Of a stretch of DNA of 64,000 nucleotides, positions 52,975-63,499 are shown one piece after another (positions within the stretch are counted from its first letter, which is position 1; each line of letters begins with the position of its first letter). A program made the position numbers and the translations under genes. Origin of the DNA: an uncultured Pelagibacteraceae bacterium (GTDB taxonomy: Bacteria; Pseudomonadota; Alphaproteobacteria; Pelagibacterales; Pelagibacteraceae); assembly GCA_902576375.1 (NCBI GenBank), contig CACGUZ010000001.1, positions 473,791 through 537,790 on the forward strand, written 5' to 3'. The notes beneath the pieces were generated by a model, which was not told where the DNA came from, did not search any database, and saw nothing but the letters and a program-made list of their open reading frames with translations.

Positions 52975-53077
52975 AAATTTACTTATTAGACTTGTTCAAT
53001 TATAAATATTAGCATAAACACTCATGAAATTCATTAATGCCCTCGTGGTGAAATTGGTAGACACAAAGGACTTAAAA
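52975..53077 (+). repeat. copy B: tRNA-Leu promoter region plus 39-bp 5' half (tRNA part 53039-53077); no 3' half follows
   Basis: 39 bp identical to intact tRNA 60477-60515; upstream about 60 bp also conserved. Confidence 0.95.
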
Positions 53078-53100
53078 AACATAGGGTAGAGATATTTTAT

Positions 53101-53130
53101 AGTCTCACACAGTCTCAGACAGTCTTAAAT
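53101..53130 (+). repeat. left-end iterons, cassette 1: AGTCTCACAC AGTCTCAGAC AGTCTTAAAT
   Basis: three AGTC units at 10-bp period starting 24 bp after core end. Confidence 0.85.
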
Positions 53131-53203
53131 CTCATTAAATCCTACATTTTAATAAGATGTTAAATTATTTATATTGAAAAATTTGAATAATAAATTCGTT
53201 CAA

Positions 53204-53222
53204 ACTAGAAGCCAACTAGAAG
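53204..53222 (+). repeat. left arm iterons, cassette 1: ACTAGAAGCCAACTAGAAG (two units, 11-bp period)
   Basis: same word recurs at the right end of the same cassette. Confidence 0.85.
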
Positions 53223-53237
53223 TTAAAGAGATAAATA

Positions 53238-53702
53238 TTAATTTGCTGATGTGTTTTTGATTATATAATCATAAGATTGTTGGTTTATCTTACAAACACC
53301 TCCTTGAAAATATAATCCATATATGTTTCTTTTCTTTTCATCAATAAAACTCAAATTATTTATATGTTCTCTGATATTGATCGGTTTTTGAAAGTATTTG
53401 AAATCTTTGAATTTTACATTAAATAAAACTTGTTTAAACTCTTGGTTAGGATCAACAGTTGTTTCTTTTAAATCTACCACTTCATCAATAAGGGCGTTAG
53501 CAATAAAGTTTTGAGCAAAGTTATTTGTTCCAGCAATGTAAAAAAGAACTTTTTTATCTTTTTTAATATTAATTAGTTGTGGAGTTTTATTATAAATCGG
53601 CCACATATTATTTTTGATTCTTTCTTTAAAAATTTCGTATCCTTCCCTTTTTCCATCGGAGGATATAAAAATAAGATGATTTGACTCAATATTATCTCTC
53701 AT
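53238..53702 (-). CDS. EVE/PUA-like domain protein (tentative)
   Basis: SSDGKREGYEIFKERIKNNMWPIY, KVLFYIAGTNNFAQNFIANALI, LSFIDEKKRNIYGLYFQGGVCKINQQSYDYII. Confidence 0.5.
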   Translation of the reverse strand: MRDNIESNHLIFISSDGKREGYEIFKERIKNNMWPIYNKTPQLINIKKDKKVLFYIAGTNNFAQNFIANALIDEVVDLKETTVDPNQEFKQVLFNVKFKDFKYFQKPINIREHINNLSFIDEKKRNIYGLYFQGGVCKINQQSYDYIIKNTSAN

Positions 53703-53741
53703 AAATATGATATATATTATATAGACTCAAAATCTCAAAAT

Positions 53742-54665
53742 ATGAAATTAAATGTATTAAGTTTATTTGACGGTATAGGTTGCTCAAGATTAGCACTAAA
53801 CAAATGCTCCAATATAAAAGTTAATAAGTATTTTTTTTCAGAGATAGATAAAAATTGCATAAAGCTTACGAAATCTAAATTTCCAGATGATATATATCTA
53901 GGTCCGGTTGAAAATATAGATATTAAAAAATTGCCTAAAATTGATTTACTGATTGGTGGAAGTCCATGTCAAGATTTAAGCAATGCACATATGGGTGATG
54001 GAATAAATGGAGTAAGATCATCTTTATTTTATCAATTTGTAAAATTAAAAAATAGATTAAAACCAAAATATTTCCTTCTAGAGAATGTTAAAAATAAATG
54101 GTCAAAGTTAATGAATAAGGAAATAGGAATAGAAGGAATTGAGCTAAATTCAATGTATTTATCTGGTCAATATAGACCACGCGTATATTGGACAAATATA
54201 GATTTTGACGAAATTAATTTTGATAAAAAGAATAAAACTATCAAGGATTATTTGGAAAAAAAAGCTGATAAGAAATATTACTTCGATATAGATATTAATA
54301 AAATCCAAAAAATAAATAAATCAAATAAATTGAAACATGGTATTAATAAAATTTGTTTAATTCCAAGAAATCTTCTCAAAGACAATGAAAGACAGAGAAG
54401 GGTGTATGATATTAGAGGTAAGTCCCCAACATTATTAGCAAGGTCTGATACTCCAAAAATACTAATTAATAATAAAATTAGAAAACTCACACCTTTAGAG
54501 TGTGAGAGATTGCAAGGATTACCAGATAATTATACAGCGAAATTTAGTAACACAACCAGGTATAAAATGATTGGCAATGGTTTTACTGTTCAAGTAATAA
54601 AATATATATTGAGTTTTGTTAGTAAAAAAACAACAAAAAAAAAACAATTAGAATTATTTCATTGA
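53742..54665 (+). CDS. C5-cytosine DNA methyltransferase (first of tandem pair)
   Basis: LSLFDGIGCSRLAL, GGSPCQDLS, FLLENVKN, QYRPRVYW, GNGFTVQV; C-terminal KKKQLELFH. Confidence 0.92.
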   Translation: MKLNVLSLFDGIGCSRLALNKCSNIKVNKYFFSEIDKNCIKLTKSKFPDDIYLGPVENIDIKKLPKIDLLIGGSPCQDLSNAHMGDGINGVRSSLFYQFVKLKNRLKPKYFLLENVKNKWSKLMNKEIGIEGIELNSMYLSGQYRPRVYWTNIDFDEINFDKKNKTIKDYLEKKADKKYYFDIDINKIQKINKSNKLKHGINKICLIPRNLLKDNERQRRVYDIRGKSPTLLARSDTPKILINNKIRKLTPLECERLQGLPDNYTAKFSNTTRYKMIGNGFTVQVIKYILSFVSKKTTKKKQLELFH

Positions 54666-55636
54666 AGTTCATAGATTTATTTTCGGGTATTGGAGGATTT
54701 AGATTAGCATTAGAAAAATCAAAATTTGAATGTGTATTTAGTGCAGACAACAATAAATATGCTTGTGAAACTTACAATAAAAATTTTAAAGAATATCCAT
54801 TAATAGATATAAAGAAATTATCAGCAAAGAAAATCCCAAATCATGATATTCTTTGTGCCGGATTTCCATGCCAACCGTTTAGTATTGCAGGTAAAAGAAA
54901 AGGTTTTGATGACACAAGAGGAACTTTATTTTTTGATATTGTTAGAATTTTAAAAGAAAAAAAACCAAAAGTTTTTATTTTAGAAAACGTAAAAGGTTTA
55001 ATTAGTCATAACAAAGGTAAGACTTTTAAAAAGATTTTAAATATTTTATCCAAAAAATTTAATGGAAATATTAATAAATCAAATAGGGAAAATTTAGGAT
55101 ACAATGTTTTCTGGAAAGTCTTAAATTCAACTAATTTTAATATTCCTCAAAATAGAGAAAGAGTATTCATAATTGGTTTTACAGATCAAAAAATTAATTT
55201 TGAATTCCCTAAAAGTCTTAAACTAAAATATACTTTAAATGATATAATTAAAATTAAACCAAAAAAAATTAGAAGAATTTCAAAATTATCCAAAGGTTAT
55301 ATAGATAAACACTTAAGAAAACACAAAAGTTACAATAAGATAAAGAATCTTAATTATTTAGTAGCTAATGAAGTTAGAAAATCTAGATGTAATTTTAGAT
55401 TTGATAATATAAGTCCTTGTTTGACTACCAAAATGGGAACTGGTGGAAATAATGTTCCTTATCTAGTGAATCAAAATAGATTTTATACTTTAGAAGAATG
55501 TCTTTTAATCCAAGGATTTCCTAAAAGTTTTAAGCTTACAAATAATTATACTGAAGCTTTAAAACAAATTGGGAATTCTGTTAGTGTGCCTGTAATTAAC
55601 TCCTTAGTTCAACAAATAAAAAAAAAAATTAAATAG
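54662..55636 (+). CDS. C5-cytosine DNA methyltransferase (second of tandem pair; TTG start overlapping previous stop)
   Basis: FIDLFSGIGGFRLAL, AGFPCQPFSIAGKRKGFDD, ILENVKGL, QNRERVFIIGF, IGNSVSVPV. Confidence 0.95.
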   Translation: MKFIDLFSGIGGFRLALEKSKFECVFSADNNKYACETYNKNFKEYPLIDIKKLSAKKIPNHDILCAGFPCQPFSIAGKRKGFDDTRGTLFFDIVRILKEKKPKVFILENVKGLISHNKGKTFKKILNILSKKFNGNINKSNRENLGYNVFWKVLNSTNFNIPQNRERVFIIGFTDQKINFEFPKSLKLKYTLNDIIKIKPKKIRRISKLSKGYIDKHLRKHKSYNKIKNLNYLVANEVRKSRCNFRFDNISPCLTTKMGTGGNNVPYLVNQNRFYTLEECLLIQGFPKSFKLTNNYTEALKQIGNSVSVPVINSLVQQIKKKIK

Positions 55637-56411
55637 GTTTGAATTCAACTTGAGGTCTCGTCCCACCCTTGCTACTTCCTTTTGTAACAATAAGATCTGT
55701 AGGGATGTTTTTAGTTAATTCATTATTAATTAAAAGCCATGTTGCACAATAAGGATCCTCAAATTCATCAGTTCCTTTATATAAAGAATCTAATATTTTT
55801 GGATCATTTATTGCCATAGATTTAATTTGTTCGTTTGAGTTTTTTTGTATTTTCTCAAAAACTTTTTTATGTTCTTCATTAAATTTTGTTTTTATATTTA
55901 TATTTTCTAAAGTTTTATTATTAAAATTTTCACCAAATTCCTTCCATGAAGTATTAGTTGCTTTTAAAACATTATGATTTTTTATTAAATCTCTTATATC
56001 TTTGCTATAGATGGTTGCACCAATGAATAAAAACTTATCTTTGAATCTTTTTACAAATTTTTCCAAAGAACACTTATCTATTTGATAATTAGTTTTATTC
56101 ATTTTTATAGAAATACCAGATTGAGGTATCTTTTTAATAAACTTTAACTTCTGATTTTCATTGATAAGATAATCATTACTTTCTAATTCTTTTTCACTTA
56201 AATTGATTTCACTTACAAAAACATCAGTTTTACAAGGTATTTTTTTATTAGTGAGTTTAGAGATCTTACTTCCAGCTACTCGTACAAAATATAAGTTTTT
56301 ATTATTTGCTAAATTAATCGTTTTCCAGATCTGATGGCCTTTGTTTGAGTTAAGTTTTTTTACAAACTCTTCCTCATTCTTAAAACCATCTAAAGCTTTA
56401 TTTGATGTCAT
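55629..56411 (-). CDS. predicted restriction endonuclease subunit 2 (PD-(D/E)XK-like, tentative)
   Basis: CKTDVFVSEINL...SGISIKM resembles D-(x)n-SxK core; start placed at MTSNKALDGF (track ORF runs to 56483); convergent with MTase gene. Confidence 0.5.
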   Translation of the reverse strand: MTSNKALDGFKNEEEFVKKLNSNKGHQIWKTINLANNKNLYFVRVAGSKISKLTNKKIPCKTDVFVSEINLSEKELESNDYLINENQKLKFIKKIPQSGISIKMNKTNYQIDKCSLEKFVKRFKDKFLFIGATIYSKDIRDLIKNHNVLKATNTSWKEFGENFNNKTLENINIKTKFNEEHKKVFEKIQKNSNEQIKSMAINDPKILDSLYKGTDEFEDPYCATWLLINNELTKNIPTDLIVTKGSSKGGTRPQVEFKPI

Positions 56412-57135
56412 TATAAGGATCCGACCATTTAAATTGAATATTTGTTGATCTTTTTTTATTTTGTGCTTGAAAAGAAAGTGCACCTACATTGCAACTAGAA
56501 TTAGATAGGTTATTGACTAAATAATTAACAATGCTTGTATGATTCGCAAAAACACATCTTTCAATTTTATTTATTCTATCGCTTTTTGAGTCAGATGATT
56601 CAAGTTTTGGACAAAAGCAATAATAATTAACTTTTGGCTCACCGTAAATTCCTGATAGAACCCTATCAATTATTTTTTGTTTATTCTTTTTTAGCAGTTG
56701 ATGAAATTCAGTGTCTTTTAAGGCTTTATTTTTTTGATTTTTATCTCTTAAAAATCTTTTTAAAAAACCAATAATTTCATTATTAGCATTTAAATCATCT
56801 TTTAAAAATTTTACAAACGTCTCTTCTTGTTCCTCATGAAAAGCATTCCCCTTACCAGACTTAACACTTATTCTAAATTCTTTATTCATTATCTTAAAAA
56901 TTTTATCAGTTTTAGGGCTACCCTTTATCTTAATTTTTAAGTTTTCTTTATTAAATTTTTTTATTTTAATTATAGTTTCTTTTTTTAACTCAATATCATT
57001 CTCATTACATATGAAATAGATAAATTTTTTTAGATTAGATGTTTTAAGATCAACAATCTTTTTATTATTAAGATATTCCTCAATTAAAGCTTCTGTTTTA
57101 AACCCTTCATTTATACCTTTTATTTTTAGTGTCAT
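56398..57135 (-). CDS. predicted restriction endonuclease subunit 1 (tentative)
   Basis: PKTDKIFKIMNKEFRISVKSGKGNAFHEEQEETF resembles D-(x)n-SxK nuclease core; overlaps the next nuclease-like ORF. Confidence 0.55.
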   Translation of the reverse strand: MTLKIKGINEGFKTEALIEEYLNNKKIVDLKTSNLKKFIYFICNENDIELKKETIIKIKKFNKENLKIKIKGSPKTDKIFKIMNKEFRISVKSGKGNAFHEEQEETFVKFLKDDLNANNEIIGFLKRFLRDKNQKNKALKDTEFHQLLKKNKQKIIDRVLSGIYGEPKVNYYCFCPKLESSDSKSDRINKIERCVFANHTSIVNYLVNNLSNSSCNVGALSFQAQNKKRSTNIQFKWSDPYNDIK

Positions 57136-57241
57136 TTATTTCTAAGAATATATAGGATAGCCAAAAACCGTAGAGATAAAATTCAAATTTTTTTGTAAAT
57201 ACTCAAATTTTTGCCACTTTTATTCACTATATTACTAATTG

Positions 57242-57265
57242 TTAAAGTTTTATTTCTAACTTTAA
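57242..57265. promoter_or_regulatory. inverted repeat TTAAAGTT-n8-AACTTTAA just upstream of ORF 57279
   Basis: perfect 8-bp arms (57242-57249, 57258-57265) in divergent promoter region. Confidence 0.5.
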
Positions 57266-57278
57266 TAACTTCAAATAT

Positions 57279-57611
57279 ATGCAACAACTTGAACTGTTTG
57301 ATTACAGAAAAGATTATCTTTTTGAAAGAGATAATAAAGTAGCTCATTATTACGATATATTAAAAGAGAATAAAGACACTATCAGCTATTCAGAACACAT
57401 TGACCCTAAAAAAAAATTTTCTATATGTGGTTTAGATTATGAAGAATATGTAGACATAAAAAAATCAGATTTGAAGGGATTAAATTATGATAAAATATAC
57501 AATTTCCTAACTAAGTTTGATAAGGAGCATAGGTTGGAGAGATACAAACAACTACTTATATTTAATGAAATAAAATTTGAAGCTGATGTGTTTACCTGGT
57601 GTAGTGATTGA
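57279..57611 (+). CDS. hypothetical protein, 110 aa, N-terminal QLELF motif
   Basis: ORF MQQLELFDYRKDYLFERDNK...; no family recognised. Confidence 0.6.
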   Translation: MQQLELFDYRKDYLFERDNKVAHYYDILKENKDTISYSEHIDPKKKFSICGLDYEEYVDIKKSDLKGLNYDKIYNFLTKFDKEHRLERYKQLLIFNEIKFEADVFTWCSD

Positions 57612-57614
57612 TTA

Positions 57615-57650
57615 TTGGATTTTATAGGATAACTAGAAGCTAACTAGAAG
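57615..57650 (+). repeat. right arm iterons, cassette 1: TTGGAT, TAGGAT, TAGAAG, TAGAAG (starts 57615, 57625, 57634, 57645)
   Basis: 10/9/11-bp spacing identical to cassette 2 right arm. Confidence 0.85.
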
Positions 57651-57670
57651 CCAGAGAGATAAAATAAAAA

Positions 57671-57773
57671 AAATTTACTTATTCATCTTGTTCAATTATA
57701 AATAGTAGCATAAACACTCATGAAAATAACTCATGCCCTCGTGGTGAAATTGGTAGACACAAAGGACTTAAAA
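57671..57773 (+). repeat. copy C: tRNA-Leu promoter region plus 39-bp 5' half (tRNA part 57735-57773); no 3' half follows
   Basis: 39 bp identical to intact tRNA; upstream sequence highly similar to copies B and D. Confidence 0.95.
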
Positions 57774-57796
57774 TAGTTTGAGTTGAGAAATTTCAG

Positions 57797-57826
57797 AGTC
57801 TCTAATAGTCCCTAATAGTCTAAATC
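57797..57826 (+). repeat. left-end iterons, cassette 2: AGTCTCTAAT AGTCCCTAAT AGTCTAAATC
   Basis: three AGTC units at 10-bp period starting 24 bp after core end, as in cassette 1. Confidence 0.85.
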
Positions 57827-57898: not shown

Positions 57899-57920
57899 AC
57901 TAGGATCTGACTAGGATCTG
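57899..57920 (+). repeat. left arm iterons, cassette 2: ACTAGGATCTGACTAGGATCTG (two units, 11-bp period)
   Basis: same word recurs at the right end of the same cassette. Confidence 0.85.
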
Positions 57921-57940
57921 TATGTATGATATCTTGTGTA

Positions 57941-58873
57941 ATGAAAAAATTTACAGTTTTTTTAATTTCAACTATTTTAATATTTAACTCATTCACCACA
58001 ACTGTTTTAGCATCTACTGTTATTAAAAAGATTAAAATTCATCAAATCACTAGTTGTGAAAAATATTTAAATACAAATTTTGAAAAATATATTGAATGTT
58101 TAAATGAGGAAGTTTTTACCTCAACATATTTTGCAAAATTATCTAAAAATAAAAAGAATGATATTCAAAGTCTTTTAGCTATTTCTAATATATTACAAGA
58201 AAATGTGGAAGATGGTTTTATTTCCGATAAAAAAGTTCTCTTAATATGGAATCAAATATTAAATAGTCCCTATAAAGCAAAGATCAAAAAGAAGGAGTTA
58301 CAAAAAGTTTTAGAACAAACTACTTGTATGGATGAAGAGGACTATGAGCCATTCATAAAATGCTTTGCTAACCAATTTAGAAACTTTGAAATTTATCAAA
58401 AATCAGATTTATTAAATAAAAGGAGAATAGAAACGATTGTGAGTAACGCTCTATATTTAACTGTGCCCAATTCAAAGGTTTATGCTTTTGCTAGAAATGA
58501 AAGTATGAGTGGTACCACCTATTCTTCAAATGAAGGATTCAATTACTTTTTGACTTATATGAATTATTTAGGCACAGACTACTTTAAAAAAGTTAAAAAT
58601 GATGTTGATTGGAATAAAATTATTAAGTTTATCATCATTGCCATAATAGTTGCTTATTTATCAAAAAGTTTGATGAAGTCTATTGGTGGAAAATCTTCAA
58701 GTGGAGCTAGCTCATCCTCATCTGCTGCTAGCACAGGATCTGGTGGATGTAGTTCAGCTCTTGTGGGAAGATGTACTTCTATCTTTCAACAAAATATGTT
58801 TAGAAATGCACCTGCAACAAGTGTTTTGAGAAAACCTTGGTTTAGATATGGTTTTACAAGAGGATTTTTTTAG
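57941..58873 (+). CDS. secreted/membrane hypothetical protein with TM helix and Ser/Gly-rich C-terminal region
   Basis: signal peptide MKKFTVFLISTILIFNSFTTTVLAS; IIKFIIIAIIVAYLSKSLM; SSSGASSSSSAASTGSGG; start moved from track 57926. Confidence 0.65.
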   Translation: MKKFTVFLISTILIFNSFTTTVLASTVIKKIKIHQITSCEKYLNTNFEKYIECLNEEVFTSTYFAKLSKNKKNDIQSLLAISNILQENVEDGFISDKKVLLIWNQILNSPYKAKIKKKELQKVLEQTTCMDEEDYEPFIKCFANQFRNFEIYQKSDLLNKRRIETIVSNALYLTVPNSKVYAFARNESMSGTTYSSNEGFNYFLTYMNYLGTDYFKKVKNDVDWNKIIKFIIIAIIVAYLSKSLMKSIGGKSSSGASSSSSAASTGSGGCSSALVGRCTSIFQQNMFRNAPATSVLRKPWFRYGFTRGFF

Positions 58874-59646
58874 TGAGAATTTTACTTACTCTATTGTTTA
58901 TTTTTACTCAGGGAGAATTGTTTGCCAAAGAATTTAAATGGAAGTTTAAGGAAAGAATAAAACATGATGATTATTATGAAGCAATAGGCACAGGAACAAA
59001 AAAAGTAAAAATTGACGGAAAGAATAAAAAAGTAAAATTTAAAATTACGGAATATTATCCTTTAAGCACAGAATTAAATGAAAAAGAGGGTAGGTGTAAA
59101 GAATTTAGAATTCAAAAAATTTCAACAGGAGGAACCATTCTGGAAAAAAATTACTCTTTAAATGATTGTTTACCTTGCATTGACAAAGGATCAGGTCATA
59201 TGTGTTCTTATCCGTACTATCAAGTATTTTATCGTTATGGTGATTACGGAATTTTTGATAAAAATTACGAGGCAATTAGTAATAACAAAGATGTTACAAA
59301 AGATGGAGCAAAATTAGTCTATATATCAATAAATATTGGCTCTAGGGAACAAGTAAGATTTTCAGAAACTTACCCAGGTCTTGAAAGTTTAGGTTTAGGT
59401 GAGATACGTTTTTTTAATAGTCAAATTTTTAAATACAACACACGACTTAGAAAAATTCAGTCAGAAAAATCAAAATTAAAAAGAACTCAAAGCCAAGTAT
59501 TTGAAATGGTTTTTAATAGAATTAAAAACAATACATTAAAAAATATTAATACTAAAACGAAAATAAATATTAGAGAAAAAGATTTAAAAATTTTGTTTAC
59601 TGCAGAACCTTCTTTATCAATTACAAAATTTCAAACAAGAGACTGA
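58873..59646 (+). CDS. secreted hypothetical protein, Cys-containing
   Basis: signal peptide MRILLTLLFIFTQGELFAKE; overlaps the preceding stop region. Confidence 0.65.
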   Translation: MRILLTLLFIFTQGELFAKEFKWKFKERIKHDDYYEAIGTGTKKVKIDGKNKKVKFKITEYYPLSTELNEKEGRCKEFRIQKISTGGTILEKNYSLNDCLPCIDKGSGHMCSYPYYQVFYRYGDYGIFDKNYEAISNNKDVTKDGAKLVYISINIGSREQVRFSETYPGLESLGLGEIRFFNSQIFKYNTRLRKIQSEKSKLKRTQSQVFEMVFNRIKNNTLKNINTKTKINIREKDLKILFTAEPSLSITKFQTRD

Positions 59647-60312
59647 TTATAATTGTTTGCACTTTTCGACAATTGTTGCATAATTTCCACCTTTAGTTTT
59701 ATGAATACCATCTTTATTTACTGTATCTAAATCAACAAGTGCAAAGGGTTTTCCAAAATCTAGTTCCTTAGAAACAATATTATAGGCTTTATCACTCCAT
59801 GTGGCTAAAGCATTATCAAAATTTTCCTCCGGTTCTGATTGTTGTATTTTGTTCCATTTTTTTAACATTTCATATGGTTCATTAGCAGAATTATTTTTCA
59901 CCCAATAAACCCATTCTTGAATGCCAAATTTTTTTAATTTTGATTTTATTAAAATTTTAAGTATTACTCCGTTTTCTAAATTAGACTCTTCCATTATTGG
60001 TGTAAAATCCATATACAGCATAAATTTACTATTATTAAAATCTAACTCAAATTTTTTTACCACAGAATCTGGATTTCCAGTAGATCCCATTGTTCCATCA
60101 ATTCCCTCCATATCTGACCAATAATTATATTTGAATAATTTACCATTTATTTCCTTATAAGAAATGTAACTTTTTTTATTAGCATTACCTAAGCATTCAT
60201 AATTTTCATCCATATCTGATTGTTTTTTGCCCATATAATCTAGAGATGACTCCGCTAAAGAAAAATTATTAAAAAGGAAACTTAACATTATGAGTAAAAA
60301 TGTTTTTTTCAT
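59647..60312 (-). CDS. secreted hypothetical protein
   Basis: signal peptide MKKTFLLIMLSFLFNNFSLAES; start moved from track 60327 to the MKK Met. Confidence 0.65.
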   Translation of the reverse strand: MKKTFLLIMLSFLFNNFSLAESSLDYMGKKQSDMDENYECLGNANKKSYISYKEINGKLFKYNYWSDMEGIDGTMGSTGNPDSVVKKFELDFNNSKFMLYMDFTPIMEESNLENGVILKILIKSKLKKFGIQEWVYWVKNNSANEPYEMLKKWNKIQQSEPEENFDNALATWSDKAYNIVSKELDFGKPFALVDLDTVNKDGIHKTKGGNYATIVEKCKQL

Positions 60313-60356
60313 AAAATAATTATACAATTTCTAATATTTTTCAGAAAGATAATTTA

Positions 60357-60394
60357 TAGGATTTTATAGGATTACTAGGATCTCTCTAGGATCT
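60357..60394 (+). repeat. right arm iterons, cassette 2: TAGGAT x4 (starts 60357, 60367, 60376, 60387)
   Basis: 10/9/11-bp spacing and distance to core (158 bp) identical to cassette 1. Confidence 0.85.
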
Positions 60395-60476
60395 AGGGAG
60401 ATAAAATAAAAAAATTTTACTTATTCATCTTGTTCAATTATAAATATTAGCATAAACACTCATGAAATTCACAAAT

Positions 60477-60562
60477 GCCCTCGTGGTGAAATTGGTAGAC
60501 ACAAAGGACTTAAAATCCTTGCCGCTTGCGGAGTGCCAGTTCGAGTCTGGCCGAGGGCACCA
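60477..60562 (+). tRNA. tRNA-Leu(TAA), CCA encoded
   Basis: GCCCTCG/CGAGGGC acceptor pairing, anticodon arm AAGGACTTAAAATCCTT with TAA, T-arm GCCAGTTCGAGTCTGGC, discriminator A plus CCA. Confidence 0.97.
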
Positions 60563-61369: not shown

Positions 61370-63499
61370 ATGAAAAAATTTTTTCTATTTATCATATTTT
61401 TTGTGACATTAATTAACTCTAACTCTTTTGCTAATTTAGAATTTAAACAATTAAAAGATATTTCTGATGACACTGATGATTTAAGAGGAATTTTTATAAA
61501 GCCTGACGGGACACGGCTTTATGTTACAGAGGATAAAGATACCAACCAACAAAATGTAATTGAGTATACCTTAACAACACCTTTCGACGTAACTACTGCA
61601 AGTAATCCAAAAAAAACACTTTTAGCAATAACCGAGGGTGGTCTTTTATCAGTTCTAGATAATCCCCATGCAATTGAGTTTAAGCCCGATGGAACGGAGA
61701 TGTATATTATTCGAAGTGAAGGCGGCGCTAGAGTTTCAATTGAACAGTTTACACTCTCTAAACCCTGGGACACAACAACTATATCTTGGACTACTTTTAA
61801 AAATATAAAAACAGGGTGTTTTAGTAGTATTCAACAAAGAGGTTTAGACTTTAAACCTGACGGAACCCGAGTGTTTGTTGCTAGTCAAGGAAATAAAAAA
61901 GTTGGGCAATACGATTTAACAACCCCTTGGGATATTTCAACAGCGACTAATCAAGTATGTTCGAGTTTTGATGAGGAACAGGTTAGAAATATACAATTAA
62001 GTGCAGATGGAAATACTTTGTATCTAGCAGGAAATGATGATGATGATATTAAAAAGTACTCGTTATCTGCGCCTTACGACATTTCATCAATGACTCTACA
62101 AACAACAACTTTTTCAATAAGTTCTCAAACTGGTAATATAAGAGGATTTCACTTTTCATCTAATTTCACAAAACTATATGTTACAGGAGATAATGGTGGG
62201 ACCGACGATGTGATTTACGAATATGACGTGGACTGCGCTGGAACTATAGTCTGTGTCAATGCATCAACTAATGCTGATATGAAAGCTATCATTGAGGCAA
62301 ATGTTGAGTCTGCTAAACGTATAATTAGAAACAATACTCTTCCAATATTTCATAGGACTGAATGGTTAAGAAGACATAAAAACAAAGATAATTTCAATAA
62401 CCTTAATGCAGAGATAGATTTTACAAATGAAAAAATTGCAAGATTAGTTAGTGCTTTAGAACCCTTTAAAAAAGAAAAAGATAGAACTTATAGTAGTGAT
62501 GATTGGTTTCAGTGGAGCGAGGGAAGAGTAAGCCTAGGTAGAAAAAGTGCAATAAGTGGATCCTCTAGAAATATTCATGGTTATGGCGTTTCTATCGGTG
62601 CAGACAAAATTAGAAAGGATAATCGAGATGCAATGTATGGTTATGTTTTTCAATACGGAAATGATGATGTTGACATTGGGAGTAATGGCACGAACTTAAG
62701 TACGGATACATATAGTATAGCTATGTATAATACAAAATTTACAAATAATGAGACTTTTACCGATAGTATTATTGGATTTAGTTTATTAGACATTAATCAT
62801 AGAAGAGTAATTAATGGAAATACTTTAGAAGGCGATAGAGGAGGGCAACAGATATTTGGCTCAATTAATTTTGGAAAAAGAATGAATGATGAAAAACTAA
62901 ATTTAAGTCCAGGTATCAAAATAGATTTAGGTTATACAAAATTAAGAGAATTTAGAGAAAAAACTACACTTGGCAATAGTTTTGCAGATGCTTTAATTTA
63001 CAAAGATCAAAATATTAAAACAGCTTTAACTACAATTGGTTTACTTTTTGACACAGAAAATGAGCAGGAAGATAAAACAACCAATCATCATGGAAGAATC
63101 GAATATGTTGGAGATCTAAGTCCGTCATCTAACGCAGAGTTTACTTACAGGAATGATCAAGGAACTGGCTATAATTATACTACAAATAATAAGTCTAAAC
63201 ATAATTACAGAATAGGTTATGGTTTCGATATAACTACAATATCAGGCTGGTCCGTTGTAACAAGTTTTGAAAGATTTGGAGCTAGTGGAAAGGGTTTTTA
63301 TAATGAGCTTTATTTATTAATAGGATATGTCCCTATTGATGATATAAAACTTTCATTTGAGATTGATAATTCAAATACAGCAAGCTTAGAATTTGATAAC
63401 AAAATGGACAACTATAATTTTAAAATAAATTCTAATTTTGATTTTTTAAGTGACGAAAAAAATTATAATACGATGATATCAGTCAGTAATAACTTTTAA
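61370..63499 (+). CDS. outer-membrane autotransporter-type protein: beta-propeller-like passenger plus C-terminal barrel
   Basis: signal peptide; repeated [FI]KPDGTR[LV][YF]V units; C-terminal amphipathic strands ending in F. Confidence 0.7.
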   Translation: MKKFFLFIIFFVTLINSNSFANLEFKQLKDISDDTDDLRGIFIKPDGTRLYVTEDKDTNQQNVIEYTLTTPFDVTTASNPKKTLLAITEGGLLSVLDNPHAIEFKPDGTEMYIIRSEGGARVSIEQFTLSKPWDTTTISWTTFKNIKTGCFSSIQQRGLDFKPDGTRVFVASQGNKKVGQYDLTTPWDISTATNQVCSSFDEEQVRNIQLSADGNTLYLAGNDDDDIKKYSLSAPYDISSMTLQTTTFSISSQTGNIRGFHFSSNFTKLYVTGDNGGTDDVIYEYDVDCAGTIVCVNASTNADMKAIIEANVESAKRIIRNNTLPIFHRTEWLRRHKNKDNFNNLNAEIDFTNEKIARLVSALEPFKKEKDRTYSSDDWFQWSEGRVSLGRKSAISGSSRNIHGYGVSIGADKIRKDNRDAMYGYVFQYGNDDVDIGSNGTNLSTDTYSIAMYNTKFTNNETFTDSIIGFSLLDINHRRVINGNTLEGDRGGQQIFGSINFGKRMNDEKLNLSPGIKIDLGYTKLREFREKTTLGNSFADALIYKDQNIKTALTTIGLLFDTENEQEDKTTNHHGRIEYVGDLSPSSNAEFTYRNDQGTGYNYTTNNKSKHNYRIGYGFDITTISGWSVVTSFERFGASGKGFYNELYLLIGYVPIDDIKLSFEIDNSNTASLEFDNKMDNYNFKINSNFDFLSDEKNYNTMISVSNNF

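Follow-up and report, generated by a model that had tools for sequence, protein, structure and literature searches.

Two tandem cassettes at a tRNA-Leu gene

The window, which is the whole 64-kb stretch of DNA that was analyzed, belongs to a SAR11 genome of 1.17 Mb and contains an intact tRNA-Leu(TAA) gene (Table 1). SAR11 are the commonest bacteria of the ocean and possess small, streamlined genomes in which, to our knowledge, few mobile elements are recognized. Two extra copies of the 5′ half of the tRNA-Leu(TAA) gene, at 53039 and 57735, delimit two tandem elements, designated cassettes 1 and 2. The paired iterons of cassette 2 are scarce elsewhere in the window: the 9-mer CTAGGATCT occurs five times in the 64 kb, compared to 0.33 occurrences expected in all, and four of the copies are located at the two ends of cassette 2. 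The genome has a single match to the recombinase family PF00589, on another contig. Consensus promoters were fewer in cassette 2 than in shuffled sequences, and therefore no promoter is claimed for the element. In cassette 1, two overlapping ORFs on the minus strand (55629-57135) matched the N- and C-terminal parts of one restriction enzyme model (PDLC03402, type II); the restriction enzyme gene may be frameshifted or split.

Table 1. Features of cassette 2 and its surroundings, in window coordinates.
Feature	Position	Strand	Remarks
Cassette 1 (neighbor)	53039..57773	+	Iterons ACTAGAAG at both ends; type II RM genes
5′ half of tRNA-Leu(TAA)	57735..57773	+	Shared boundary: right end of cassette 1, left attachment core of cassette 2
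Core repeat GGTAGACACAAAGGACTTAAAA	57752-57773		Inside the 5′ half of tRNA-Leu(TAA)
AGTC-N6-AGTC-N6-AGTC triple	57795..57825 (approximate span)	+	Adjoins core
Left paired iterons ACTAGGATCT	57899-57908 and 57910-57919	+	Proposed integrase arm sites
ORF1	57926-58873	+	Signal peptide, two Cys pairs, one TM helix, Ser/Gly linker, basic/aromatic C-tail
ORF2	58873-59646	+	GTG start, 1-nt overlap with ORF1 stop; predicted secreted protein
ORF3	59647-60312	-	Predicted secreted protein; a single Cys close to each terminus
Right paired iterons ACTAGGATCT / TCTAGGATCT	60374-60383 and (T)CTAGGATCT 60386-60394	+	
Host-type tRNA-Leu upstream (promoter) region	60400..60476 (approximate span)	+	On right end of cassette 2
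Intact tRNA-Leu(TAA)	60477..60562	+	Restored by right end of cassette 2

The cargo of cassette 2 was predicted originally to consist entirely of secreted or envelope proteins of no recognized family, and the sequence features on which this prediction was based were borne out. Signal peptides were called at the start of all three ORFs by a simple in-house hydrophobicity rule, rather than a trained predictor; the localization of all cassette ORFs is based on this rule. The likelier start of ORF1 is an ATG at 57941 that is 21 nt past the last iteron base, in agreement with the spacing of ~20 bp proposed previously. The C-terminal transmembrane helix, Ser/Gly linker and basic/aromatic tail ascribed to ORF1 also are present, as a second hydrophobic stretch at residues ~231-250, a Ser/Gly-rich stretch at ~257-275 and the tail RKPWFRYGFTRGFF. 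Four cysteines are conserved in two pairs, and the one transmembrane helix is followed by the basic tail. ORF1 most likely is an inner-membrane protein of type I, in which the two Cys pairs belong to a periplasmic domain and the tail, short and basic, is cytoplasmic. ORF1 and ORF2 probably form a translationally coupled envelope pair in which ORF2 would be the periplasmic or secreted partner of ORF1.

Searches of Pfam, NCBIfam and PHROGs with ORF1, ORF2 and ORF3 produced no meaningful E-value and PADLOC gave no match above noise, and no known phage-exclusion or defense family was recovered from these four collections. The sensitive fold search suggested originally also provided no family: profile searches of the PDB gave nothing convincing, AlphaFold models built from four-row alignments were unusable (pLDDT 48.2 for ORF1 and 36.7 for ORF2), and Foldseek of ORF1 against the PDB yielded no match below an E-value of 2.6. 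Judged by its sequence, ORF1 is a member of a previously undescribed protein family.

The ORF1-ORF2 pair recurs at three tRNA genes

Relatives of ORF1 were found in only three other genomes among the 399 sampled from this SAR11 genus, and a GTDB scan returned the same three. The relatives are located at tRNA-Leu (L013), tRNA-Ser (L014) and tRNA-Thr (L015), in each case inside a cassette with tRNA repeats and paired iterons. When 397 genomes of the family were searched with an ORF1 profile, the gene of the window and two marginal partial matches (E ~8e-4), which were not accepted, were recovered. INPHARED phages, IMG/VR and plasmids contained no ORF1 relatives. An ORF2-like gene follows ORF1 in all four loci, although the encoded proteins are only 22-24% alike to ORF2 of the window. 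No relative of ORF3 was detected in any other genome searched. As ORF3 also is on the opposite strand, the recurring unit is ORF1-ORF2 and not all three genes whose co-occurrence was proposed for scrutiny. The four ORF1 homologs are members of tRNA-integrated cassettes rather than housekeeping genes in unrelated loci, which together with the enrichment of signal peptides in cargo across the class (see below) upholds the prediction of mobile secreted or envelope cargo. Because these four loci represent three tRNA genes and four iteron types, ORF1-ORF2 is viewed as a putative mobile envelope module.

ORF3 and four cargo proteins of other cassettes (the product of the third gene in L013 and those in L053, L079 and L094) are predicted secreted proteins of 169-226 amino acids that have just two cysteines beyond residue 25, each close to a different terminus. 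Comparison of the sequences did not demonstrate that all five are related and revealed no kinship between ORF3 and the third gene of L013; hhalign of ORF3 against a three-row set of two-Cys proteins gave a probability of 19% with the match mostly in the signal peptide.

A class of cassettes in SAR11

The left-end signature was defined as the tRNA core followed by three AGTC motifs at 10-bp spacing. This pattern was present after the 5′ half of tRNA-Leu(TAA) in 75 of the 399 sampled genomes of the genus, at ~90 junctions, whereas the reversed pattern that served as control had no match in the 399 genomes. The AGTC triple beside the core is common to the ~90 cassette junctions and to integrase-bearing satellites. 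Elements between consecutive cores in the fetched loci provided 79 cassettes with a median size of ~2.5 kb. A GC-containing 8-mer with at least three copies was common to the two ends of 65 out of 78 cassettes, compared to 330 of 6006 mismatched end pairs (5.5%) and none of the shuffled sequences. The left and right iterons thus match within a cassette, but differ between cassettes. No ORF in the 79 cassettes matched a profile built from nine integrases; as the table of cargo Pfam matches comprises the commonest 25 of 83 families, the absence of integrases rests on this profile. Matches between the cassettes and the packaging or noncoding regions of satellites were confined to 23-39 bp. A search of the available literature found no description of these SAR11 cassettes.

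In the 61 cassettes that have an assigned iteron and a first ORF on the plus strand, the start codon of the first cargo gene has a median distance of 175 bp to the core and of 32 bp to the last left iteron. Cargo ORFs are oriented predominantly in this direction (185 on the plus and 21 on the minus strand), and a GAGATAA-like element with at most one mismatch is located between the left iterons and the first cargo ORF in 58 of 79 cassettes. The suggestion that the arm sites double as an operator of the cargo promoter is consistent with this element and with the position of the first ORF ~30 bp past the iterons (n = 61), and arm sites that overlap a promoter have a precedent in intS of KplE1 (PMC2951348). 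In L014 and L015 the module genes are read opposite to the tRNA, and the placement of ORF1 relative to a given end therefore is not constant. The right ends of cassettes resemble native tRNA upstream regions, with which they are 80% identical over 70 nt, whereas those of satellites do not (35-41%). The second element in locus L101 is MITE-like, being 275 bp in length with ACTAGAAAC ends and no ORF.

Cores and paired iterons of integrase-bearing satellites

A scan of IMG/VR with the junction pattern identified three contigs (L109, L110 and L111). L109 is 7.8 kb and has the junction at both ends, and so is probably circular. It encodes a 545-aa integrase (PHROG integrase, 4e-20; PF00589, 4.9e-5, which is below the curated cut-off), a DUF5906 primase (PF19263, 6.9e-11), a RusA-like protein, and a 97-aa product that is AlpA-like in size and place and has no Pfam or PHROG match. 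The integrase had no match among INPHARED phages. In L109, paired iterons are located to the left of the core and also within the opening codons of the integrase gene; the iterons of L109 and L111, ACTAGGGTCT, matched no sampled cassette.

A profile of the satellite integrase matched six of the 399 SAR11 genomes. Iteron sequences of cassettes were found in four satellites. L110 has ACTAGGATCT, the iteron of cassette 2, at the place that corresponds to the left iterons of the latter, with repeats that are only partly perfect. L142 and L143, both at tRNA-Leu, possess the iterons ACCAGCACA and ACTAGAAAC, respectively, that also occur in cassettes. At tRNA-Ser, L144 has a 23-bp double iteron, AACTTGAGACAAACTTGAGACAA, identical copies of which are present at the two ends of L014, an ORF1 cassette. 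Satellites with readable ends have the core and paired iterons as in cassettes. Thus, the cassettes display a recurrent anatomy, iterons that match end to end, no detectable integrase, and a core and iterons in common with integrase-bearing satellites.

A satellite in genome G202 (L145), which forms one array with two cassettes, has a diverged integrase and different repeats. A restriction helicase in satellite contig L111 is 60% identical to one in cassette L082. Three pelagiviruses (L016-L018) also have the tRNA-Leu core beside their integrase, with 100%, 96% and 87% identity over the match. Pelagiphages HTVC105P and HTVC109P were considered as the source of the iterons and rejected: the core is in common (100% and ~87% over the match), but the neighboring repeats differ.

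Possible routes of cassette movement

The preferred reading, to which we assign a probability of about 0.7, is that short recombinase-less SAR11 cassettes are composed of two attachment ends and a cargo on which satellite integrases act in trans, with ORF1-ORF2 as an envelope pair. The left end consists of the 5′ half of tRNA-Leu, the AGTC triple and paired iterons, and the right end of paired iterons, a tRNA upstream region of host type and the 5′ half of the tRNA, by which the gene is restored. Because the iterons recur at both ends of integrase-bearing satellites, the repeats are best read as integrase arm sites: the satellite integrase would bind them and recombine the tRNA core, and a cassette with the same ends as the satellite would be a further substrate that is inserted and excised in trans. 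The cargo would be read from the left end, while the right end would supply a host-type upstream region to the tRNA. Movement in trans by satellite integrases would be the simplest model. Against it, satellites are rarer than cassettes (6 compared to 75 of 399 genomes), the iterons of L109 and L111 have no counterpart in the sampled cassettes, those of L110 are only partly perfect, and flanking repeats >100 bp could spread cassettes also by homologous recombination.

Cassettes instead might be decayed satellites or islands (CIMEs) that lost their integrases separately and move passively, only with a functional element inserted alongside. CIMEs are known to arise by decay and accretion (PMC5704250), tandem arrays with satellites exist as in G202, and the ORF-less 275-bp cassette in L101 can be read as a product of decay. 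This origin nevertheless is unlikely as the structure is uniform in the 79 cassettes with a fixed start of the first cargo gene, few remnants of satellite genes are visible, and right ends are host-type, unlike those of satellites, which suggests a maintained element. A very unlikely possibility is that homologous recombination between repeats next to tRNA genes is the main route by which cassettes spread, with the iterons as relics. The conserved flanking repeats fit such a process, and homologous exchange at RNA genes was proposed for the surface cassettes of other hypervariable regions in SAR11 (PMC2217521), but iterons that match within and differ between cassettes do not, and exchange at one locus leaves the presence of ORF1-ORF2 at three tRNA genes unexplained. 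It is more improbable still that the cassettes depend for their movement on the one tyrosine recombinase that all tested SAR11 genomes possess: PF00589 was matched in 15 of 15 cassette-bearing genomes tested and in that of the window, yet one common enzyme does not account for the many iteron types matched within each cassette, and the same iterons accompany the satellites' own integrases.

Among known elements, CIMEs are the closest kind to the cassettes. Both have attL and attR, here tRNA 5′-half repeats at the two ends, without an integrase, and line up at a tRNA gene in tandem with elements that bear an integrase (PMC5704250); cassette 2 likewise lacks integration genes and holds only three ORFs, all predicted to be secreted. 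The cassettes differ in their uniform recurring structure, end-to-end matched iterons and host-type tRNA upstream region, and in having partners that are phage-satellite-like and not conjugative. These integrase-bearing partners have no recognized capsid gene, and L109 resembles minimal marine satellites of the PICMI/VEIME type in its small size and its integrase and DUF5906 primase (PMC10803314), whereas cassettes lack both genes and none of the three ORFs in cassette 2 is a recombinase or primase. Tycheposons of Prochlorococcus, as cited in PMC10872708 and PMC10803314, are similarly tRNA-targeted cargo elements of streamlined marine bacteria, but are reported to have a tyrosine recombinase, which the SAR11 cassettes do not. 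Integron cassettes, CALIN and MITEs also place cargo, or no gene as in L101, between recombination sites with the recombinase elsewhere (PMC11389934); the site in SAR11 differs from that of integron cassettes and CALIN in being a tRNA half with arm repeats of the tyrosine-integrase type.

Cargo and possible roles

The rule used for ORF1-ORF3 called signal peptides in 102 of 206 cassette ORFs and in 102 of 622 nearby chromosomal ORFs (about half compared to 16%); counted per cluster, the values were 52 of 121 and 46 of 230, respectively (P ~1e-5). Autotransporter, trypsin-like, caspase-domain, M16 peptidase and pilin-like proteins exemplify the surface or secreted cargo, and methyltransferases, restriction enzymes and GmrSD, among the matches listed, exemplify the defense cargo. 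A cassette usually carries either a secreted or surface protein or a defense system.

Phage superinfection-exclusion membrane proteins generally are inner-membrane or periplasmic and are encoded on mobile elements. ORF1-ORF2 is alike to them only in general plan with no sequence relation found. Surface remodeling such as phage-receptor masking or superinfection exclusion was suggested originally, and the best guess as to function is that the pair blocks either the adsorption of phages or the entry of their DNA, which is reasonable in view of the cassette neighborhood but doubtful. The chance that ORF1-ORF2 instead serves to bind nutrients, to cope with envelope stress or to compete with neighbors, however the cassette moves, is not far short of even: some cassettes have metabolic or hydrolytic cargo and nothing directly links the pair with phage resistance. 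Conversely, defense genes are present in many neighboring cassettes, including cassette 1, and copies of ORF1-ORF2 are few and far apart in sequence (26-38% identity to that of the window), as in arms races.

More broadly, satellites and recombinase-less cassettes could constitute one modular system with its own iteron code for each integrase, and ORF1-ORF2 an undescribed two-protein envelope defense, which is plausible but somewhat less than probable. If so, cassettes would be passengers of the integrase with the same code, and the population would shuffle surface and defense genes between codes and tRNA genes. Cassettes at tRNA genes that lack a recombinase but have the sites of satellite integrases would repeatedly import secreted, surface or anti-virus genes into SAR11. 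Being present in approximately one-fifth of the genomes sampled, and having end codes matched to particular satellite integrases, such cassettes offer a directly testable route for surface and defense change in SAR11, and reading their cargo provides a way to collect secreted and defense genes of unknown family.

Two further observations concern surface genes. Cassettes L054 and L070 have up to ~10 tandem pilin-like genes (PF07963 in the member tested). In the window, an autotransporter gene beside the NAD kinase gene (61370-63499, plus strand) specifies a protein that, along most of its length, shares 31% identity with the cargo of cassette L060, and so cassette-type surface cargo is located also outside a cassette.
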